A stretch of DNA of 46,165 bases from Robertmurraya massiliosenegalensis JC6 (GTDB taxonomy: Bacteria > Bacillota > Bacilli > Bacillales > Cytobacillaceae). The position numbers and the translations under genes are program-made. The notes beneath the pieces were generated by a model. The model saw nothing but the letters and a program-made list of their open reading frames with translations. It was not told the origin of the DNA and did not search any database. This document shows, in pieces, positions 1,700-10,520 of this stretch. The stretch spans positions 1,203,171 through 1,249,335 of the forward strand of contig NZ_HE978511.1 of assembly GCF_000311725.1 (NCBI RefSeq), in the 5' to 3' direction. How positions within the stretch are numbered: the stretch's first letter is position 1; every line of letters begins with the position of its first letter.

Positions 1700-1840
1700 T
1701 ATCGATTCCTCCCTTATTAATATTTACGTATGAGAATAGAGAAAGTTTTATATTCTGCCAAATGATTGGAATTTTTTTAATCGTAACCTTGTTTCTAATC
1801 AGTTCTCAATAAAGAAAAAAATGTTCATTATTTTGAAATT

Positions 1841-2059
1841 TTAAGAATAATAGAGATATTTGGTGGAAATTGGAGTATTCCGTTCATTATATTGAACAAA
1901 TCGTTCTTTTTGACGTTTTTCAAAAGGAGGAATTTGTTCTAAACTACGCTTAATATGTTCGTTATAAAGAATATATTCCGATGACGAACAAAAAGGAGGG
2001 ACATTTTCACTAGAAGAGATAGATTCATCTACACCAACAAAGAAAAAATACATACTCAA
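1841..2059 (-). CDS. Doubtful small ORF, up to 72 aa
   Basis: A minus-strand frame in the 365-bp gap before the exported-protein cluster. The C-terminal half (E-K-R-Q-K-E-R-F-V-Q-Y-N-E-R) has plausible protein composition. However, the start is TTG (or ATG at 2053) with no Shine-Dalgarno, and I recognise no family. On the plus strand the gap also has two orphan AGGAGG-like runs near 1925 and 1995 without starts. It may be a remnant or nothing. Confidence 0.2.
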   Translation of the reverse strand: MSMYFFFVGVDESISSSENVPPFCSSSEYILYNEHIKRSLEQIPPFEKRQKERFVQYNERNTPISTKYLYYS

Positions 2060-2082: not shown

Positions 2083-2517
2083 GTGAACTTGAAGAAATTT
2101 CTCGCTTTTTTTATAACTTGCTTCCTGTTGTTAAGCTGTTCGCCCATCTATGCTCATACAGATTCGGGAGAAAGACTCCAAAATATATATCAAAATCTTA
2201 TCCATACGAAGCAGGAAAACGTGGAAAACATTGTATCAGATGAGACGAGTCGCTTGAAGGAGTCTTCAATCAAAACAATAGGAACATTATTCAAGGAAAC
2301 AGAAACAGCACTTACTGATTTTTTATTTATTTCATCTACTGATGCACAGAAGGACATTGAGAATTATAAAGAAAGTCATCAAACGCAATTAATGAAAACA
2401 AAGAATCAATTATTAAAACAAGACTTCCAAGAATTTTCCCAAGAAAAAAGCAAAGAGATTGATATTGAAATTTCTCAGGATATTGAAGGATTTCTAGAAG
2501 AAATTCTATCAAATTAG
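2083..2517 (+). CDS. Exported helical protein 1 of the signal-peptidase cluster
   Basis: A secreted, mostly helical, Lys/Glu/Gln-rich protein of about 144 aa. Signal peptide: L-K-K-F-L then a hydrophobic run ending S-P-I-Y-A, with cleavage likely after A-x-A-type Y-A. An internal L-L-S-C could alternatively be a weak lipobox. The mature N-terminus H-T-D-S-G-E-R-L-Q-N-I-Y matches the next gene (N-T-D-A-G-G-A-L-K-N-W-Y). The rest is predicted coiled coil with no cysteines and no known domain. Start is ambiguous: ATG 2065, ATG 2071, GTG 2083 or TTG 2089. The GGAAGGAAAGGTG run favours GTG/TTG, which also gives a normal signal peptide. It is first of four co-directional genes. Confidence 0.75.
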   Translation: MNLKKFLAFFITCFLLLSCSPIYAHTDSGERLQNIYQNLIHTKQENVENIVSDETSRLKESSIKTIGTLFKETETALTDFLFISSTDAQKDIENYKESHQTQLMKTKNQLLKQDFQEFSQEKSKEIDIEISQDIEGFLEEILSN

Positions 2518-2570
2518 GTTTTCATGAATAACAAATATAAAAATCAAATGGCGAAAGGAAGTTTTTAATC

Positions 2571-3341
2571 ATGAACGTAAAAGGAAAATTAGTAGCAGGA
2601 GTCGTAACGGTTGGATTGGTATCAGGTATAGGGATGGCATTCGCAAACACAGATGCAGGCGGCGCATTAAAAAACTGGTATGATGCACAGTTCAATAAAA
2701 CTGTGGAGTCTGTTCAAAGAGACGTCGGGGCATACACTCAAGGGAAAATTCCTGGTTTGTTAGACGAATACAACACTAAGAAAGCAGCTGGATTAACAGA
2801 AATTTCTCAAACAGGTGATTCAGAATTAGAAAGTAGTTCAAGTGCAATTGAACTTGCGAAGAATAGTCACATTGAATCATTAGAAGGTTCAAAGAAAGAA
2901 ATCTTGGGGCAAATGGGACAACAATTTTATCAAGATGTATTTTTAGAAGGTTTTTATAAAATTCAACAAGCTAGTAATGAAGCATTCAACTATGCAAATC
3001 GTGACTTAAGCACACAGACAGGAAATGCTGGAACTGAAGCAATTAATTCTGTCACAACAGGATTAACAGATGCTAAAGAAAGAGCTGTTTCAGAATTAGA
3101 AGAAGCGATTAGGCTCGCTAAAGAAGAACTTTCTGCTTCATTAGATACTGCGGAAGAATATACAACTCGCAACCTTAAAAATCAAGTAGATTGGCAGATC
3201 GGGGATTTACAGGAGCAAGTTGAGGATATTTTAGACACACTTGTAGCAGAGCAACAAGCATTGATTGTTGCAAAGGCAGACGAACTTGAAGAAGATGCAA
3301 AAGCTAGCTTAGACACATTGGTTTCTGGAATCAATAATTAA
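2571..3341 (+). CDS. Exported helical protein 2 (probable major component), 256 aa
   Basis: Secreted protein with a signal peptide M-N-V-K-G-K-L then a hydrophobic stretch ending G-M-A-F-A, cleaved before N-T-D-A-G. After cleavage it carries the shared motif T-D-A-G-x-x-L-x-x-W-Y. The body (about 230 aa) is Ala/Glu/Gln/Ser-rich, strongly helical with heptad-like spacing, and Cys-free. Several segments repeat an L-E-E-A-x-x-x-A-K pattern around residues 165-195. No catalytic motif is visible, so a structural, fibre- or surface-forming role is an inference. AAAGGAAG precedes the ATG by 9 nt. A strong hairpin follows directly, which would make this the most abundant product of the cluster. Confidence 0.8.
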   Translation: MNVKGKLVAGVVTVGLVSGIGMAFANTDAGGALKNWYDAQFNKTVESVQRDVGAYTQGKIPGLLDEYNTKKAAGLTEISQTGDSELESSSSAIELAKNSHIESLEGSKKEILGQMGQQFYQDVFLEGFYKIQQASNEAFNYANRDLSTQTGNAGTEAINSVTTGLTDAKERAVSELEEAIRLAKEELSASLDTAEEYTTRNLKNQVDWQIGDLQEQVEDILDTLVAEQQALIVAKADELEEDAKASLDTLVSGINN

Positions 3342-3350
3342 TAAATCCAA

Positions 3351-3378
3351 GTTAGGACCTAAAAACTTAGGTCCTAAC
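3351..3378 (+). terminator. Perfect 12-bp hairpin between exported proteins 2 and 3
   Basis: GTTAGGACCTAA / TTAGGTCCTAAC around an AAAC loop, then a short CTTTTAG. It lies 10 nt after the stop of protein 2 and just before the AAAGGAGG of protein 3. Its T-tract is weak, so partial termination or 3'-end protection is more likely than full arrest. Confidence 0.6.
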
Positions 3379-3401
3379 CTTTTAGCAAAGGAGGATGCCC
3401 A

Positions 3402-3863
3402 GTGTTTAATCTAAAAAGTAAAAAATTCCTAGTTGGAGCTCTTTTTTTAATATTAATAGTAGGAAGTAGTGTCAATGTTGCTTTTGCCGGACAGGATATT
3501 CATTCTCTATTATCGAGTTGGTTTCAGACTGAACGTTCGAACTCAATTGCAGAGATTGAAGAAGCAGTTGCGATAGAACAAGAAATTCAAACAGAGCGGT
3601 TAAAAGAAGAGTTGCGGTTAGGAATAGAAAATGCAGAGCGCCAATTGGAGAATTACACCGATAAGATGAAAGCAAACAGTATTTCAGAAATTCAAAAGCA
3701 TGCAGACCAACTTGTCAACTCTATTGAGATTGACCAGTCAGAAGAAAAAAATAATGTTACTAGTCAATTAGAAGCCATTATTCAAGATGCAAAAAATAAG
3801 ATAGACGCAATCGCTTCCCAACCTGTGGTCGCCCCAGATGGGGATAAGGATACTTCAAAATAA
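3402..3863 (+). CDS. Exported helical protein 3, 153 aa
   Basis: GTG start with AAAGGAGG 7 nt upstream. Signal peptide: N-L-K-S-K-K-F then a hydrophobic run ending N-V-A-F-A, cleaved before G-Q-D. The mature start G-Q-D-I-H-S-L-L-S-S-W-F fits the L-x-x-W-[YF] motif of proteins 1 and 2. The remainder is a charged amphipathic helix region (E-E-A-V-A-I-E-Q-E, then E-N-A-E-R-Q-L-E-N) ending in a disordered P-V-V-A-P-D-G-D-K tail. Cys-free, no known domain. The signal peptidase gene begins 22 nt after its stop, so the two are probably translated from one message. Confidence 0.78.
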   Translation: MFNLKSKKFLVGALFLILIVGSSVNVAFAGQDIHSLLSSWFQTERSNSIAEIEEAVAIEQEIQTERLKEELRLGIENAERQLENYTDKMKANSISEIQKHADQLVNSIEIDQSEEKNNVTSQLEAIIQDAKNKIDAIASQPVVAPDGDKDTSK

Positions 3864-3885
3864 AATGATGGAAGGTGTACGGTGT

Positions 3886-4425
3886 ATGAGATTGGAAGTG
3901 GACTTACATCCTATTAATGCAAACCAATTAGAACTGGAAAAAACAGAAAAGAAAAAAGGAAGTTTGTTAAATTGGCTAGGATTTCTCTTCATTTTGGCAA
4001 TTATCTTTTTCACCACACATTATGCGATTGGAATAACCGTTATAAGTGGTCAATCAATGGCTCCCACTCTTAATGATAAAAATATTACGTTATCCAACCA
4101 ATTACTATATACAATTGAAAGAAACGACATTGTTATTTTTCAAGATAAAAATGGCTTCGATGTCATTAAGAGAGTGATCGCTTTACCCAATGAAACGATT
4201 GAAATTAAAGACGGCTTGGTTTTCGTGAATGGACAGCCAATAGAAGAAGAATACATAGTTGGAACAGCAAATGATATGGAAAAACAATTGGTTGCTGAAG
4301 GCTCCTATTTTGTCATGGGTGATAATCGAGAACCTGGAGAAAGTCTTGACAGCAGAAGTTCCGACATCGGCACCATACCAGAGGGAAAAATCAAAGGAAA
4401 GATGTTATTTTCATTTGGGATGTAG
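3886..4425 (+). CDS. Type I signal peptidase, SipS-like, 179 aa
   Basis: Membrane-bound Ser/Lys protease removing signal peptides. Seen: basic cytosolic N-terminus, one membrane anchor at about residues 28-48, then Box B S-G-Q-S-M-A-P-T (nucleophile Ser57), Box D F-D-V-I-K-R-V-I-A-L-P (general base Lys95), and Box E G-D-N-R with S-L-D-S-R (about 145-157). The lysine marks it as the bacterial P-type, not the ER/SipW Ser-His type. I place the start at ATG 3886, 8 nt after GGAAGGTG; upstream in-frame ATGs at 3838 and 3865 lack a site. Its place behind three exported proteins suggests a dedicated peptidase, as SipW is for TasA/TapA, but general secretion use is not excluded. Confidence 0.92.
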   Translation: MRLEVDLHPINANQLELEKTEKKKGSLLNWLGFLFILAIIFFTTHYAIGITVISGQSMAPTLNDKNITLSNQLLYTIERNDIVIFQDKNGFDVIKRVIALPNETIEIKDGLVFVNGQPIEEEYIVGTANDMEKQLVAEGSYFVMGDNREPGESLDSRSSDIGTIPEGKIKGKMLFSFGM

Positions 4426-4442: not shown

Positions 4443-4611
4443 TAATAAACAAACAGAAAAATTCCCCTTGTTAGCCAAAAAAATTCAACAACAGGAGATT
4501 TTCCACTGCATTAGCGGAAAATCTCCTGTTTTTGACCACGATACGAGTTCCATTGTTACTTAATAACCGAAAAAATCCGCTTAATTTATGTTTGCTGGAT
4601 ACTTCTTAATC
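4443..4611. repeat. ~168-bp dispersed element, copy A
   Basis: Nearly identical to copy B at 12492-12660 and clearly related to copy C at 15474-15640, all in the same orientation. Landmarks in order: AAATTCCCCTTGTTAGC, an inner hairpin, GACCACGATACGAGTTCC, and CCGAAAAAATCCGCTTAAT. No ORF. The conserved length and order suggest a non-autonomous mobile element or a structured RNA, not a chance repeat. Confidence 0.85.
4490..4530 (+). terminator. Inner hairpin of repeat copy A, likely end of the exported-protein operon
   Basis: AACAGGAGATTTTCC and GGAAAATCTCCTGTT pair perfectly (15 bp) around an 11-nt loop and are followed by TTTG. It is the first strong hairpin after the signal peptidase gene. 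The same hairpin, with one mismatch each, is in copies B and C. Confidence 0.6.
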
Positions 4612-7016: not shown

Positions 7017-8390
7017 TTACATAGGACCCCAATTAATTAATTGTCCTATTGCTAATGCAATTGCACCTAAAACGAACCAAATCAGCATAATTCTCCAAAT
7101 AAATTTTAGCCAAGCGGAGTATGGAACACCACCAATAGCTAAGCTTGCCATTAGAATACCAGAAGTAGGAAATAGACTATTCGTGAAACCATCCCCTAAC
7201 TGAAATGCTTGAACTGCGACTTGGCGATTTATATCTAAAATATCTGCTAATGGTGTCCAAATTGGCATCGTTACAACAGCTTGACCAGAACCAGATGGAA
7301 CAAAGAAATTAAACAATCCATTTGCAAATAACATTCCTATTGCTCCTGTAATGGGCGAAAGTGGTTCCAACGTATTAGACATAGCAAGTATAACAGTATC
7401 TAATATTCTTCCATCCTCTAATATAAAGACTATAGCCCTCGCTGCTCCTACTACTAAAGCACCATAAACTAAATTTTGTGCACCTTCCATGAAATTATTT
7501 ACAATTTCTGTAGAATTCATTCTCGCAATAATCCCTGCTCCAATCGCAATTACTACAAATATCGCTGTCATGTCATTCATACCAAAATCATAAGTCAGTG
7601 AACCATATACATAAAAGGCAATTCCAGCTACGAAAAGCAATAAAATTAATGCATGTCTAGTGGTAAACTTTTGATCTTTGTTTAAACTTGTTTCCTGATC
7701 CTTATTTGAAAATTTTTGTTCTCCCATAAAACTCTTCGAAGGATCTTTCAAAATTCTATTACAGTACCAGATCACATAAATTATGGTTGCTACCGCGAAT
7801 ATAACATACAAAATGACACGATAAGTTAATCCTGAAAACATAGGAAGTTCTGCTATTTCTTGTGCAACTCCTAATGTTTTTGGGTTTAAAAAGGCAGTAT
7901 TAAAACCTGCCATACTCGTTAAAAAGACGATTGCGACCCCAGCAATTGCATCGAGCTTTAGAGCTTTAGCGATCAATATCCCGATAGGTATAAATGCAAT
8001 CGTTGCATTTGAGGAAAAACCAGTAGTACATAGAAAGGAAAATAAAATACCTAATATGGTTATTAAAACAAACTTGCGATTTTCTAATTTGTTTATTAAC
8101 GCCATAATCCCTGCATTAACCGCTCCTGAGGCTTCCATTACTCTAAAAGCTCCACCGATGAACAAAATTAATATAATAATATTCGCAGTGTCAATCATTC
8201 CAAGTGGATACGATAAAAAGACATCTGCTATACCAACTGGAGTTTTCTCTACTTGTTGATAGCTTTCAGGGTCTACTATTGTAATACCATCTTTCTCAAT
8301 TCTCTCAAATTCACCTGCAGGAATCACATATGTGGCAATCGCACATACGATCATTAATAAAAACAAAACTACATACGTATCCGGCATCAT
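7017..8390 (-). CDS. YfcC-family membrane transporter, N-terminus probably lost
   Basis: Polytopic membrane protein (457 aa, about 11-12 hydrophobic segments) of the YfcC/COG1288 group, related to the C4-dicarboxylate and NhaC/AbgT-like ion transporter superfamily. Conserved G-F-S-S-N-A-T-I-A-F-I-P and F-F-V-P-S-G-S-G-Q-A-V are present. Its neighbour is an M20 amidohydrolase, a common pairing that suggests uptake of an acylated amino acid or peptide. The reading frame continues upstream of ATG 8390 as P-K-K-K-F-K-L without a start codon, which looks like the family's native N-terminus. No Shine-Dalgarno precedes 8390. Translation may be coupled through a TAATG overlap with the CapA-like gene. 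Confidence 0.82.
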   Translation of the reverse strand: MMPDTYVVLFLLMIVCAIATYVIPAGEFERIEKDGITIVDPESYQQVEKTPVGIADVFLSYPLGMIDTANIIILILFIGGAFRVMEASGAVNAGIMALINKLENRKFVLITILGILFSFLCTTGFSSNATIAFIPIGILIAKALKLDAIAGVAIVFLTSMAGFNTAFLNPKTLGVAQEIAELPMFSGLTYRVILYVIFAVATIIYVIWYCNRILKDPSKSFMGEQKFSNKDQETSLNKDQKFTTRHALILLLFVAGIAFYVYGSLTYDFGMNDMTAIFVVIAIGAGIIARMNSTEIVNNFMEGAQNLVYGALVVGAARAIVFILEDGRILDTVILAMSNTLEPLSPITGAIGMLFANGLFNFFVPSGSGQAVVTMPIWTPLADILDINRQVAVQAFQLGDGFTNSLFPTSGILMASLAIGGVPYSAWLKFIWRIMLIWFVLGAIALAIGQLINWGPM

Positions 8391-9244
8391 TAATTTAAAT
8401 TTCTTTTTTGGCTCTGGTAAAATTCCTTTAAAAATTGAGGGGGTTCTTCAAGATTATCTCCTGTCATTTCATGCGAATGAATACTAACAAGTACAATATC
8501 GGCTTGCCTTTTTGCTTCAGAAATAGAATTTAATATCCTATTCATATCTTCCTTATTAACTGTGGTAACTTGTCGTCCTTTTTCACCAATCCTAAAATTG
8601 TATTTTCCAAATGAAAAGATATTCCCAACGGTTTGATTCTCAATTCCCAATTTTGCATGTAAATTACGCACTGCATTAATATCAGTTTCACTTGCAATGT
8701 CTTTTAATGCATCCATATGCTCCCTAGTAACCTCATAAACTATCTCGTGACGAAGAGGATTAATACCCGGTCTTCCTATAATATCCGGGCGCTGTTCCCC
8801 TGCCCTCCAAGATTCATAAAAAGTAGAGGTGGCAGAAATAATCGCTACTCTCCCCTTTTTGGTCTCTAGATACCTAGGTTTACTTGCCTCAGCTAAATTT
8901 TCACCGGCACCAGCATGAACAAATTGGTTTTCATTTAGATATTTTTCTGTTGCTACAAGACCACCAATTGAAAAATCTAGTGTATGATTGGTTGCCCAAG
9001 CAAGAAGGTTAAATCCATATTTTTTTAAATCATGTAATACACTAGGATGGGAAACAGCCCATGCCCCGCCACTTTCCGCAGATGGATACCCCTCAAAATC
9101 ATGTACAGTAACTTCTAAATTGGTAAAACGCACATCTGCTTTCATGAGAACATCGGATATCACTTTTGAGTTATAATCTTCATCTGGCAACCTACGGGTG
9201 ATAAAGCTATCACCCGTAGCCGCAATTGTAACTTCTTCTCCCAT
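8390..9244 (-). CDS. CapA-like metallophosphatase domain protein, C-terminally truncated
   Basis: PGA_cap/CapA-like fold (calcineurin-type). Seen: A-A-T-G-D-S-F near the start, F-T-N-L-E-V-T, L-A-W-A-T-N-H-T-L-D, A-I-I-S-A-T-S-T and S-I-H-S-H-E. The usual end (G-A-D-x-x-x-x-H-G-P-H and the S-L-G-N-F-x-F block) is missing. After P-P-Q-F-L-K-E-F the protein runs into Y-Q-S-Q-K-R-N-L-N and stops. About 284 aa against a usual 350-450, lacking some metal ligands, so likely inactive. Start at ATG 9244, with AAGGGGGGAGCG upstream; the longer frame from 9268 lacks a site. It slightly overlaps the permease gene. Confidence 0.78.
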   Translation of the reverse strand: MGEEVTIAATGDSFITRRLPDEDYNSKVISDVLMKADVRFTNLEVTVHDFEGYPSAESGGAWAVSHPSVLHDLKKYGFNLLAWATNHTLDFSIGGLVATEKYLNENQFVHAGAGENLAEASKPRYLETKKGRVAIISATSTFYESWRAGEQRPDIIGRPGINPLRHEIVYEVTREHMDALKDIASETDINAVRNLHAKLGIENQTVGNIFSFGKYNFRIGEKGRQVTTVNKEDMNRILNSISEAKRQADIVLVSIHSHEMTGDNLEEPPQFLKEFYQSQKRNLN

Positions 9245-9257
9245 AATCGCTCCCCCC

Positions 9258-10520
9258 TTAATCCCCATGCAGTTCTCTACGTGCTATTCTTTCCAAAAGA
9301 TTAACTGATGGCACTAGAACTTGTTCATCGATATCAAACGCTTGGTTATGATGTGGTGCAGGAATAGGAGTTCCAATCAACATATAGGTACCTTTTCCGC
9401 CATTTTCTTGAACCTTATTTATAAGGAAACTGGCATCTTCACTGCCTCCCCCCTTATGGTAATCAAGTATACTGTGAAACTCTTCTATATATTCAGCTTC
9501 TTCCTTAACAACATTAATTAGGTCCTCATCACAAGAGAATGTTATTGCACTTCCGATAACTTCTGTTTCAAAACCAAGTCCGTGCATTTCGGCACTATGC
9601 TCGACTATCCTCTTCACTCGTTCTTCCAATTCCGCATTAACGGTTGCAGACGTTGACCTTGTTTCAATTAACATTTTTGCATATTGTGGAACTATATTTA
9701 GTGCAGCTCCTCCTTCTAGTAATCCAACGTTCACTCGAGTTTGTTCAGAACTATGTCTTGGTAGGCTATGAATATTTAAAAGGGCAGTTGCAGCTCCTAT
9801 CAAAGCATTTTTCCCTTTTTCTGGAGAGGCACCAGAATGAGACGGAACCCCATAAAAATGGGCAACCATCTTTGTTGTTGCAAGCCATTGGTTGGAACCA
9901 CCACTGATTTCTCCTAATGGGACATCTAACCCTAAATGCAAACAATAGATTTTATCTATGTCATTGACGATACCTTTTTGTACCATGGAGTAGGCTCCTC
10001 TGCCTCCTTCCTCAGCAGGTTGAAAGATTAATTTTAGAGTTCCAGAAAAATCACAGTTAGCCATTTTTTTCGCAAACTCAAGCCCAATTACTGTATGACC
10101 ATCATGTGCACAGGCATGCATATTCCCTTTATATTTTGATCTAAAATCATGTATTTGAGGGAAATGTTGTTCGTCAGAACTTTCTTCTACAGGAAGGGCA
10201 TCCATATCAAACCGAAACCCAATAGTCGGACCAGGCTTCCTTCCTTTTAGTACTCCTACAACAGCGGTTAGTCCTCCCTTCATTCTCCTAATAATATTCG
10301 GATTCGCCCCATCCTTAATGGCTCTTTCATACGCATGATCTAGTTCTTCTTCGGATGGAACACCTCTGCGAGAACCCTCATCCAATGCATCTTCACCATA
10401 TAAAACTTCAAATTTAAGAGATTGCAATATTTCTACCACTTTAGTTGCTGTCCAAAATTCTGTAAATCCAACTTCAGGACGTTGATGAAACTCACGCCTT
10501 AATTTAATTACATCTTCCAT
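9258..10520 (-). CDS. M20-family amidohydrolase (AbgA / IAA-amino-acid hydrolase type)
   Basis: Zinc-dependent hydrolase cleaving an amide bond in an N-acyl amino acid or similar compound. Metal ligands: C137-A-H139 in H-A-C-A-H-D-G-H, Q-P-A-E-E-G-G-R-G with the catalytic Glu at about 170-171, the Y-C-L-H-L-G histidine, and the late G-S-E-D-A-S-F and P-H-H-N-Q blocks. A lid domain sits in the middle. 420 aa is near family length. The insertion at residues 45-75 (E-E-E-L-D-H-A-Y-E) is typical of the AbgA branch. AAGGTGGGG precedes the start. It lies in a RidA / M20 / CapA / YfcC row, so the substrate probably enters through the YfcC protein. Confidence 0.88.
   Translation of the reverse strand: MEDVIKLRREFHQRPEVGFTEFWTATKVVEILQSLKFEVLYGEDALDEGSRRGVPSEEELDHAYERAIKDGANPNIIRRMKGGLTAVVGVLKGRKPGPTIGFRFDMDALPVEESSDEQHFPQIHDFRSKYKGNMHACAHDGHTVIGLEFAKKMANCDFSGTLKLIFQPAEEGGRGAYSMVQKGIVNDIDKIYCLHLGLDVPLGEISGGSNQWLATTKMVAHFYGVPSHSGASPEKGKNALIGAATALLNIHSLPRHSSEQTRVNVGLLEGGAALNIVPQYAKMLIETRSTSATVNAELEERVKRIVEHSAEMHGLGFETEVIGSAITFSCDEDLINVVKEEAEYIEEFHSILDYHKGGGSEDASFLINKVQENGGKGTYMLIGTPIPAPHHNQAFDIDEQVLVPSVNLLERIARRELHGD

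Follow-up and report, generated by a model that had tools for sequence, protein, structure and literature searches.

TapA and TasA, as described in PMC9674648, share an N-terminal joining segment, are cut by the signal peptidase SipW, and are controlled by SinR, and the same source records that TasA was first seen as a spore-associated protein. The CapP protein of Bacillus cereus is described in PMC13082335 as combining a helical N-domain with a tail of repeats, which retains it at the wall. Here, we describe an operon in a stretch of 46,165 nucleotides from Robertmurraya massiliosenegalensis JC6 (contig NZ_HE978511.1, positions 1,203,171 to 1,249,335 of the forward strand), hereafter called the window, which encodes three exported proteins, A, B, and C, followed by a signal peptidase, Sip. 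Comparisons of this operon with related loci incline us, with moderate confidence, to the view that it encodes a second assembly of the extracellular matrix or cell surface, one of alpha-helical type that in the order of the window would share its control by SinR with the biofilm matrix genes. No paper describing an A-B-C(-Sip) operon was found in the literature searched by titles and abstract openings, a search for which subscription papers and bioRxiv were mostly outside the coverage. All four open reading frames were found at the coordinates given in a first-pass annotation of this DNA:

2083..2517, plus strand: gene A, short exported protein of 144 amino acids from the GTG at 2083; an in-frame ATG also lies at 2065, and the start codon is unsure
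2571..3341, plus strand: gene B, open reading frame for an exported protein of 256 amino acids
3402..3863, plus strand: gene C, open reading frame for an exported protein of 153 amino acids with a short non-helical tail, GTG start at 3402
3886..4425, plus strand: sip, signal peptidase I with a Ser/Lys pair, from a subfamily linked to the cluster, ATG at 3886; an in-frame ATG also lies at 3838

Each of the three proteins starts with a signal peptide, and the mature N-termini, which read exactly as first annotated, follow the pattern D-x(4)-L-x-x-[WI]-[YF]. The annotation had assigned A-x-A-type cleavage sites to all three, but the site in A is I-Y-A; in the protein sets aligned, a script detected an A-x-A-like site ahead of the W motif in all 18 B and all 19 C proteins and in 13 of the 17 A proteins. 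The claim that the proteins contain no cysteines holds for the mature parts in the window, but not for the signal region of A, which contains two, and there is less certainty about how A is processed in this strain because the LLSC of that region could be read as a lipobox. A cysteine in the mature part was seen in none of the 18 B and 19 C proteins and in one of the 17 A proteins.

Profiles built from these 18 B, 19 C, and 17 A proteins matched each other with E-values of 1.1e-12 (B-C), 8.1e-16 (B-A), and 5.2e-12 (C-A) with the signal peptides included, and of 4e-9 (A-B), 9.5e-7 (B-C), and 1.8e-6 (A-C) for the mature parts alone, as compared to 0.016 to 0.21 for six reversed-sequence controls of the mature-part comparison. 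The controls were used because such profiles can drift to coiled coils, as illustrated by an iterated-profile match to L032_8197_8802, a repetitive coiled coil without a signal peptide that was taken as false. When the first 20 mature residues were removed, the E-values reached only 7e-4 to 2.5e-3, and the common core is therefore above all the mature N-terminus. Judged by these profiles, A, B, and C are paralogues of one family. The first-pass proposal of a trio of related exported proteins that have their own peptidase is supported.

None of the three proteins reached the curated cut-off of any Pfam or NCBIfam model, and none of the 18 B-type proteins had a Pfam match at 1e-3. The family names obtained for A to C in these libraries (GPL, LXG, MinC, AbiA, and others) were all rejected as being under the curated cut-offs, the best being AbiA with an E-value of 0.00085 and 18.1 of 250 bits. 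Profile searches of B and C against the PDB yielded weak matches only, including coiled coils and apolipoproteins, with best E-values of 0.21 for B and 0.03 for C. The 256-residue protein is thus, as first annotated, without a clear match to a family of known role in the Pfam, NCBIfam, and PDB profile searches. A phage or plasmid origin was also rejected, with no tblastn match of B at 1e-5 in the phage or plasmid collection; C had a single sub-cut phrog match (E 0.0046). A role in defence, for which there were three weak padloc matches (E 0.0024 to 0.0083), was likewise rejected.

The A-B-C(-Sip) arrangement recurs across Bacillales and relatives. The B protein was found in 20 of the 193 genomes of the window's family, representing 6 of 25 genera, in 34 of 397 genomes sampled from the order and in 13 of 398 sampled from the class, counts that include one or two short and weak matches (G509, G829). 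Among the named carriers are Neobacillus, Planococcus, Sporosarcina, Psychrobacillus, Peribacillus alkalitolerans, Bhargavaea, Edaphobacillus, and Brevibacillus laterosporus. The gene order was laid out for 66 loci, 22 of which were A-B-C-SIP, 26 A-B-C, and 8 B-C-SIP-B, while 10 had other orders; this layout omits L128, which has no cluster, L203, which is sub-threshold, and L092, which shares a contig with L200, and codes are mixed with names among its 30 genus labels, so that one genus may count twice. It was also noted that L049 (genome G161) contains a degenerate cluster, in which an A-type remnant accompanies a short, stop-containing B match, and that contig C7 of G029 contains, near the contig end, a second partial B with a copy of sip; these are cases of loss and duplication of the cluster. 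At L048 (2776-13381), the cluster has the order B, B, C, SIP, A and adjoins genes for SinR-like, TasA/camelysin (PF12389), and SipW-like proteins.

Sip is a signal peptidase I by model score (TIGR02227, 119.8 bits, cut-off 47), with only 20.2 bits on the archaeal/endoplasmic reticulum-type model (cut-off 51.85), and Ser57 and Lys95 were invariant in all 17 aligned cluster enzymes. SipW has a Ser/His dyad. The enzyme has an S26 domain with the conserved Ser and Lys, as in the Ser/Lys assignment of the first-pass annotation, and by its model scores it is not SipW-like. A subfamily model built from the cluster members identified the enzyme (E <= 1e-40) in 13 of the 193 family genomes, all of which were among the 20 with the cluster (hypergeometric 1.4e-15), and in none of the 173 without a B match. 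In seven genomes checked, the subfamily model gave 242.6 to 271.0 bits for the cluster enzymes and at most 119.9 for others, whereas on TIGR02227 the cluster enzymes scored 112.7 to 119.6 bits and the other signal peptidases above the cut-off 161.5 to 193.7, with none between. In a single tree, read without a fixed root, a 99/99 branch separated 22 housekeeping enzymes from the 17 cluster enzymes and two SipW-like sequences; the cluster enzymes also stood apart from the two SipW-like sequences, but were not resolved as one clade, and one housekeeping enzyme was placed on a very long branch. On these comparisons, the cluster Sip is classified as a subfamily apart from the housekeeping enzymes.

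The region upstream of gene A contains the following sites, which carry no strand:

1882..1897: exact GTTC-N8-GAAC inverted repeat, a candidate operator for SinR and the only exact copy within the window
1802-1817, 1823-1838, and 1957-1972: three copies of the repeat with one mismatch
1903-1909: single GTTCTTT half-site

The half-site consensus given for SinR in PMC3163267 is GTTCTYT, best bound as an inverted repeat. In the 400 bp upstream of 58 clusters, counted from the first start codon of the open reading frame, we observed 53 such half-sites as compared to 10.6 expected. In a subset of 25 loci, which was picked after the half-site counts for all 58 were known, GTTCTYT was the most enriched (43 versus 4.2) of the 3906 seven-base motifs with one Y or R that were seen at least 8 times, counting each strand; its density in the cluster upstream regions was 3.5 times that in 98 other upstream regions from these loci, and it occurred in 21 of 25 versus 27 of 98. 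The repeat GTTC-N8-GAAC was framed after paired half-sites had been seen, and was found in its exact form in 20 of 58 cluster upstream regions versus 6 of 222 control regions, and with at most one mismatch in 39 versus 15. A scan of spacings from 0 to 20 in the 25 loci showed that only a spacing of 8 stood out, with 20 sites versus 12 in 322 kb elsewhere, and 0 to 2 at the other spacings. The 58 loci include the degenerate cluster of L049, and p-values are overstated since loci are related (9 of g35, 9 of g47, L033 with L034). The host tasA gene, which serves as a positive control, carries GTTCTTTATAAAGAAC, starting about 100 bp upstream, and the host sinR gene has a looser repeat starting 71 bp upstream. 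A gene for a SinR-like protein was located within 4.5 kb of 12 of the 58 clusters, nine of them in one genus, and the one scanned, in L122, contained a helix-turn-helix and a SinI domain; SinR itself is no marker of carriers because SinI-domain matches occur in 188 of the 193 family genomes. Within the order of the window, the operon may be controlled by SinR through these predicted sites.

The half-site and the repeat were absent in exact form from most loci of g35, g47, and g53. We noted that L106, L108, L109, L111, and other g35 loci contain two one-mismatch repeats upstream of the cluster at a conserved distance of 66 bp, which suggests paired operators. None of nine loci with a response-regulator gene close by contained a SinR-type site, as compared to 39 of 49 loci without such a gene; the neighbour pattern search missed a response regulator beside L098, which likewise lacks the site. 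In Pfam searches at loci without sites, five examples had NarL/LuxR-type regulators and two had a HisKA_3 kinase with an HD_5 protein. NarL/LuxR-type regulators near clusters without SinR-type sites were seen in L200, L201, L117, and L118, and also in L040, L098, L115, L116, L086, L088, L096, and L202, several of which add a HisKA_3 kinase and an HD_5 (HD-GYP-like) membrane protein. Furthermore, L117 and L118 contain GTTC-N8-GAAC between sip and the kinase gene. Control of the cluster seems to have been re-wired between lineages, a pattern with which the kinship of the loci is confounded. Elsewhere in the genome of the window (L204, 8348-9977), a second SipW-like gene and a gene for an exported protein of 309 amino acids were observed, with GTTCTTTACTAAGAAC nearby at 9960.

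Two structural elements were identified within and behind the operon:

3349..3380, plus strand: strong RNA hairpin between B and C, z -3.72, with none of 200 shuffles equally stable; its position is conserved
4490..4530, no strand assigned (listed on the minus strand by the scan): terminator-like inverted repeat 3' of sip

Among the loci, 57 of 62 gaps between B and C were folded, of which 40 had a hairpin with z < -2 and 45 one with -15 kcal/mol or lower. The corresponding numbers were 6 and 0 for the A-B gap (46 folded of 51) and 0 and 1 for the C-Sip gap (17 folded of 35), where only gaps of 11 to 299 bases were folded and simple shuffles were used. The hairpin sequence differs among lineages while its place is kept, and in L115, where Sip directly follows B, the hairpin is still located 3' of B. 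Given this location, B is probably made in excess, and the hairpin may raise B over C and Sip by transcript ending or protection. Further downstream in the window, positions 8390-9268 encode a protein that by eye is CapA-like (poly-gamma-glutamate-type), with an amidohydrolase and a large transporter as neighbours.

The mean hydrophobicity of mature B has a single period of 3.73 along its entire length, with an amplitude of 5.04 as compared to 3.23 for the highest of 2000 shuffles. Mature C has the same period of 3.73 (amplitude 3.22, reached by 3 of 2000 shuffles) and mature A a period of 3.77 (amplitude 3.79, reached by none of 2000), and no signal was found in this analysis at the heptad period of 3.5 in A, B, or C. 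The proline content of B is 0.2%. The helical nature of the long bodies, as first annotated, is predicted from composition and periodicity. As periods of 3.73 to 3.77 are close to 15/4 = 3.75, we read the mature proteins as probable long helices of the right-handed coiled-coil type, with an amphipathic membrane helix as the rival. The tails of the C proteins differ greatly in length among loci and are acidic or proline-rich. In L199 (7878-8921), the C protein has a long tail of tandem proline-rich repeats; wall-spanning segments often have such repeats, and this tail looks like a wall-spanning spacer. The B2-type proteins in L122 (9454-10653) and L048 (6043-7149 and 8530-9612) contain an extra C-terminal domain of about 100 to 135 residues, beta-rich by eye, with no Pfam match and, in L122, no PDB match, which could be a binding end.

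The proposed helical matrix or surface assembly, with B as the main subunit, has the same logic as TapA and TasA with other parts, and builds on the observed paralogy, conserved gene order, Sip subfamily, SinR-type sites, hairpin, and periodicity. The proteins A, B, and C would leave the cell by the Sec pathway, after which their own Ser/Lys peptidase, where present, would cut behind x-x-A and free the common mature N-terminus, which may act as a joining or nucleating segment like the N-terminal strand in TasA and TapA. As the longest of the three, B would be the major rod-forming subunit, made more abundant than C and Sip by the hairpin. A starter or capping role is proposed for A, and C, in which the acidic or proline-rich tail varies, may be the wall-proximal subunit. 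Such a model presumes that SinR binds the operon, that this Sip cleaves the three proteins, and that they assemble as coiled coils, form filaments, and serve in a matrix. In its boldest form, which we put forward tentatively, the operon would represent a widespread, undescribed class of matrix filaments, an alpha-helical counterpart of TasA, consisting of right-handed (15/4-type) coiled-coil rods of three secreted paralogues with a processed common N-terminus and a private Ser/Lys peptidase, switched by SinR or, where a lineage lacks SinR sites, by a two-component system encoded next to the cluster.

Several observations weigh against this interpretation. The exact repeat in the window is not significant by itself, with a shuffle mean of 0.5 and a copy in 40 of 100 shuffles, and genome-wide the repeat is neither rarer nor commoner than chance (66 versus 106 for the backward control); since the site in the window proves nothing alone, the weight rests on the comparison over loci. 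The SinR-type repeat is missing from the upstream regions of 19 of the 58 loci, and from all nine loci fetched later from other families. Sip is absent from 30 of the 66 clusters laid out, which must therefore use another peptidase, so that "dedicated", as the enzyme was first described, fits the Sip subfamily, confined to the cluster in the window's family, but not these clusters; the refuting case named in the annotation, homologues without the peptidase in most genomes, is escaped by a narrow margin only (Sip in 36 of 66 loci). The cleavage sites are similar in clusters without Sip, as would be expected if the enzyme were an ordinary signal peptidase placed there by chance, a view that we consider most improbable given that the subfamily is separate, occurs only with the cluster among 193 genomes, and is set off by a wide gap in scores, even if the model was built from cluster members. 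Finally, periodicity by itself cannot separate a coiled coil from an amphipathic membrane helix, and C has sub-threshold matches to apolipoproteins (Pfam E 0.031, best PDB apolipoprotein E 0.069). Together with the long, proline-poor helices, these matches would suit secreted amphipathic helical proteins with lipids or membranes as their target, whether apolipoprotein-like, antimicrobial, or vesicle-coating, made under biofilm control and without fibres. We regard this as unlikely, though the strongest of the alternatives, as every apolipoprotein match is under the cut-off, and an assembly would be the better fit for three paralogues that share an N-terminal motif and have a private peptidase.

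The proteins might also be helpers of TasA-type fibre assembly, such as CapP-like chaperones or anchors, with no separate system of their own. TasA-family genes were found in 14 of 15 carrier genomes tested, SinR-type sites occur at both tasA and the cluster, and the helical N-domain and wall-holding repeat tail described for B. cereus CapP (PMC13082335) resemble C, but the carrier G321 had no TasA-family match, the cluster lies apart from the tasA locus in the 4.96-Mb genome of the window, and likeness to DUF4047/CapP was lacking (hhalign E 0.051 to 0.14), which makes this explanation improbable. Less probable still is a spore-surface or spore-coat system. It has in its favour the presence of spoIVA in 13 of 14 carrier genomes tested and the early association of TasA itself with spores (PMC9674648); Planococcus sp. 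107-1, however, contains a full A-B-C-SIP cluster and no spoIVA match, and the SinR-type sites point to the biofilm regulon. For these two reasons, a matrix or surface role is favoured over the spore surface among the possibilities first raised for a new matrix, fibre, or spore-surface system, and fibres would be a further step. If the proposed matrix or surface assembly is correct, many Bacillales own a second protein-matrix or surface system with another fold than TasA and the same master regulator, built from a new family of helical surface proteins, and one logic of private peptidase, common processed N-terminus, and SinR control has been met twice. SinR control and secretion are open to direct test in a culturable strain.

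The operon invites comparison with three described systems. The Sip enzymes resemble type I signal peptidases of the SipS kind in belonging to peptidase family S26 and in having the Ser/Lys pair, but form a subfamily of their own, as seen from the lower TIGR02227 scores than those of the housekeeping enzymes of the same genomes. CapP (BC1280, DUF4047), as far as it is characterized in PMC13082335, is SinR-regulated and exported, with a helical N-domain and a variable wall-holding tail, as we propose for C, but there is no sequence likeness, the hhalign E-values being 0.051 for A, 0.062 for B, and 0.14 for C, with no DUF4047 match at E <= 1; furthermore, the CapP-type matches in carrier genomes lie away from the cluster, two of them near tasA. 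In comparison with tapA-sipW-tasA, the three paralogues of the cluster are predicted to be helical while TasA is a jelly-roll protein, the peptidase is a Ser/Lys type I enzyme and not SipW-like, and A to C had no PF12389 match at E <= 1 in Pfam, in agreement with the first-pass annotation. By these sequence criteria, the cluster is not a member of the TasA system. The analogy drawn by the annotation is nevertheless strengthened, within the window's order and not outside it, by the SinR-type sites and the SinR-like neighbours: like tapA-sipW-tasA of Bacillus subtilis, as portrayed in the sources cited, the operon encodes exported subunits whose mature N-termini are related, includes a gene for a signal peptidase, and has putative SinR-type operators.

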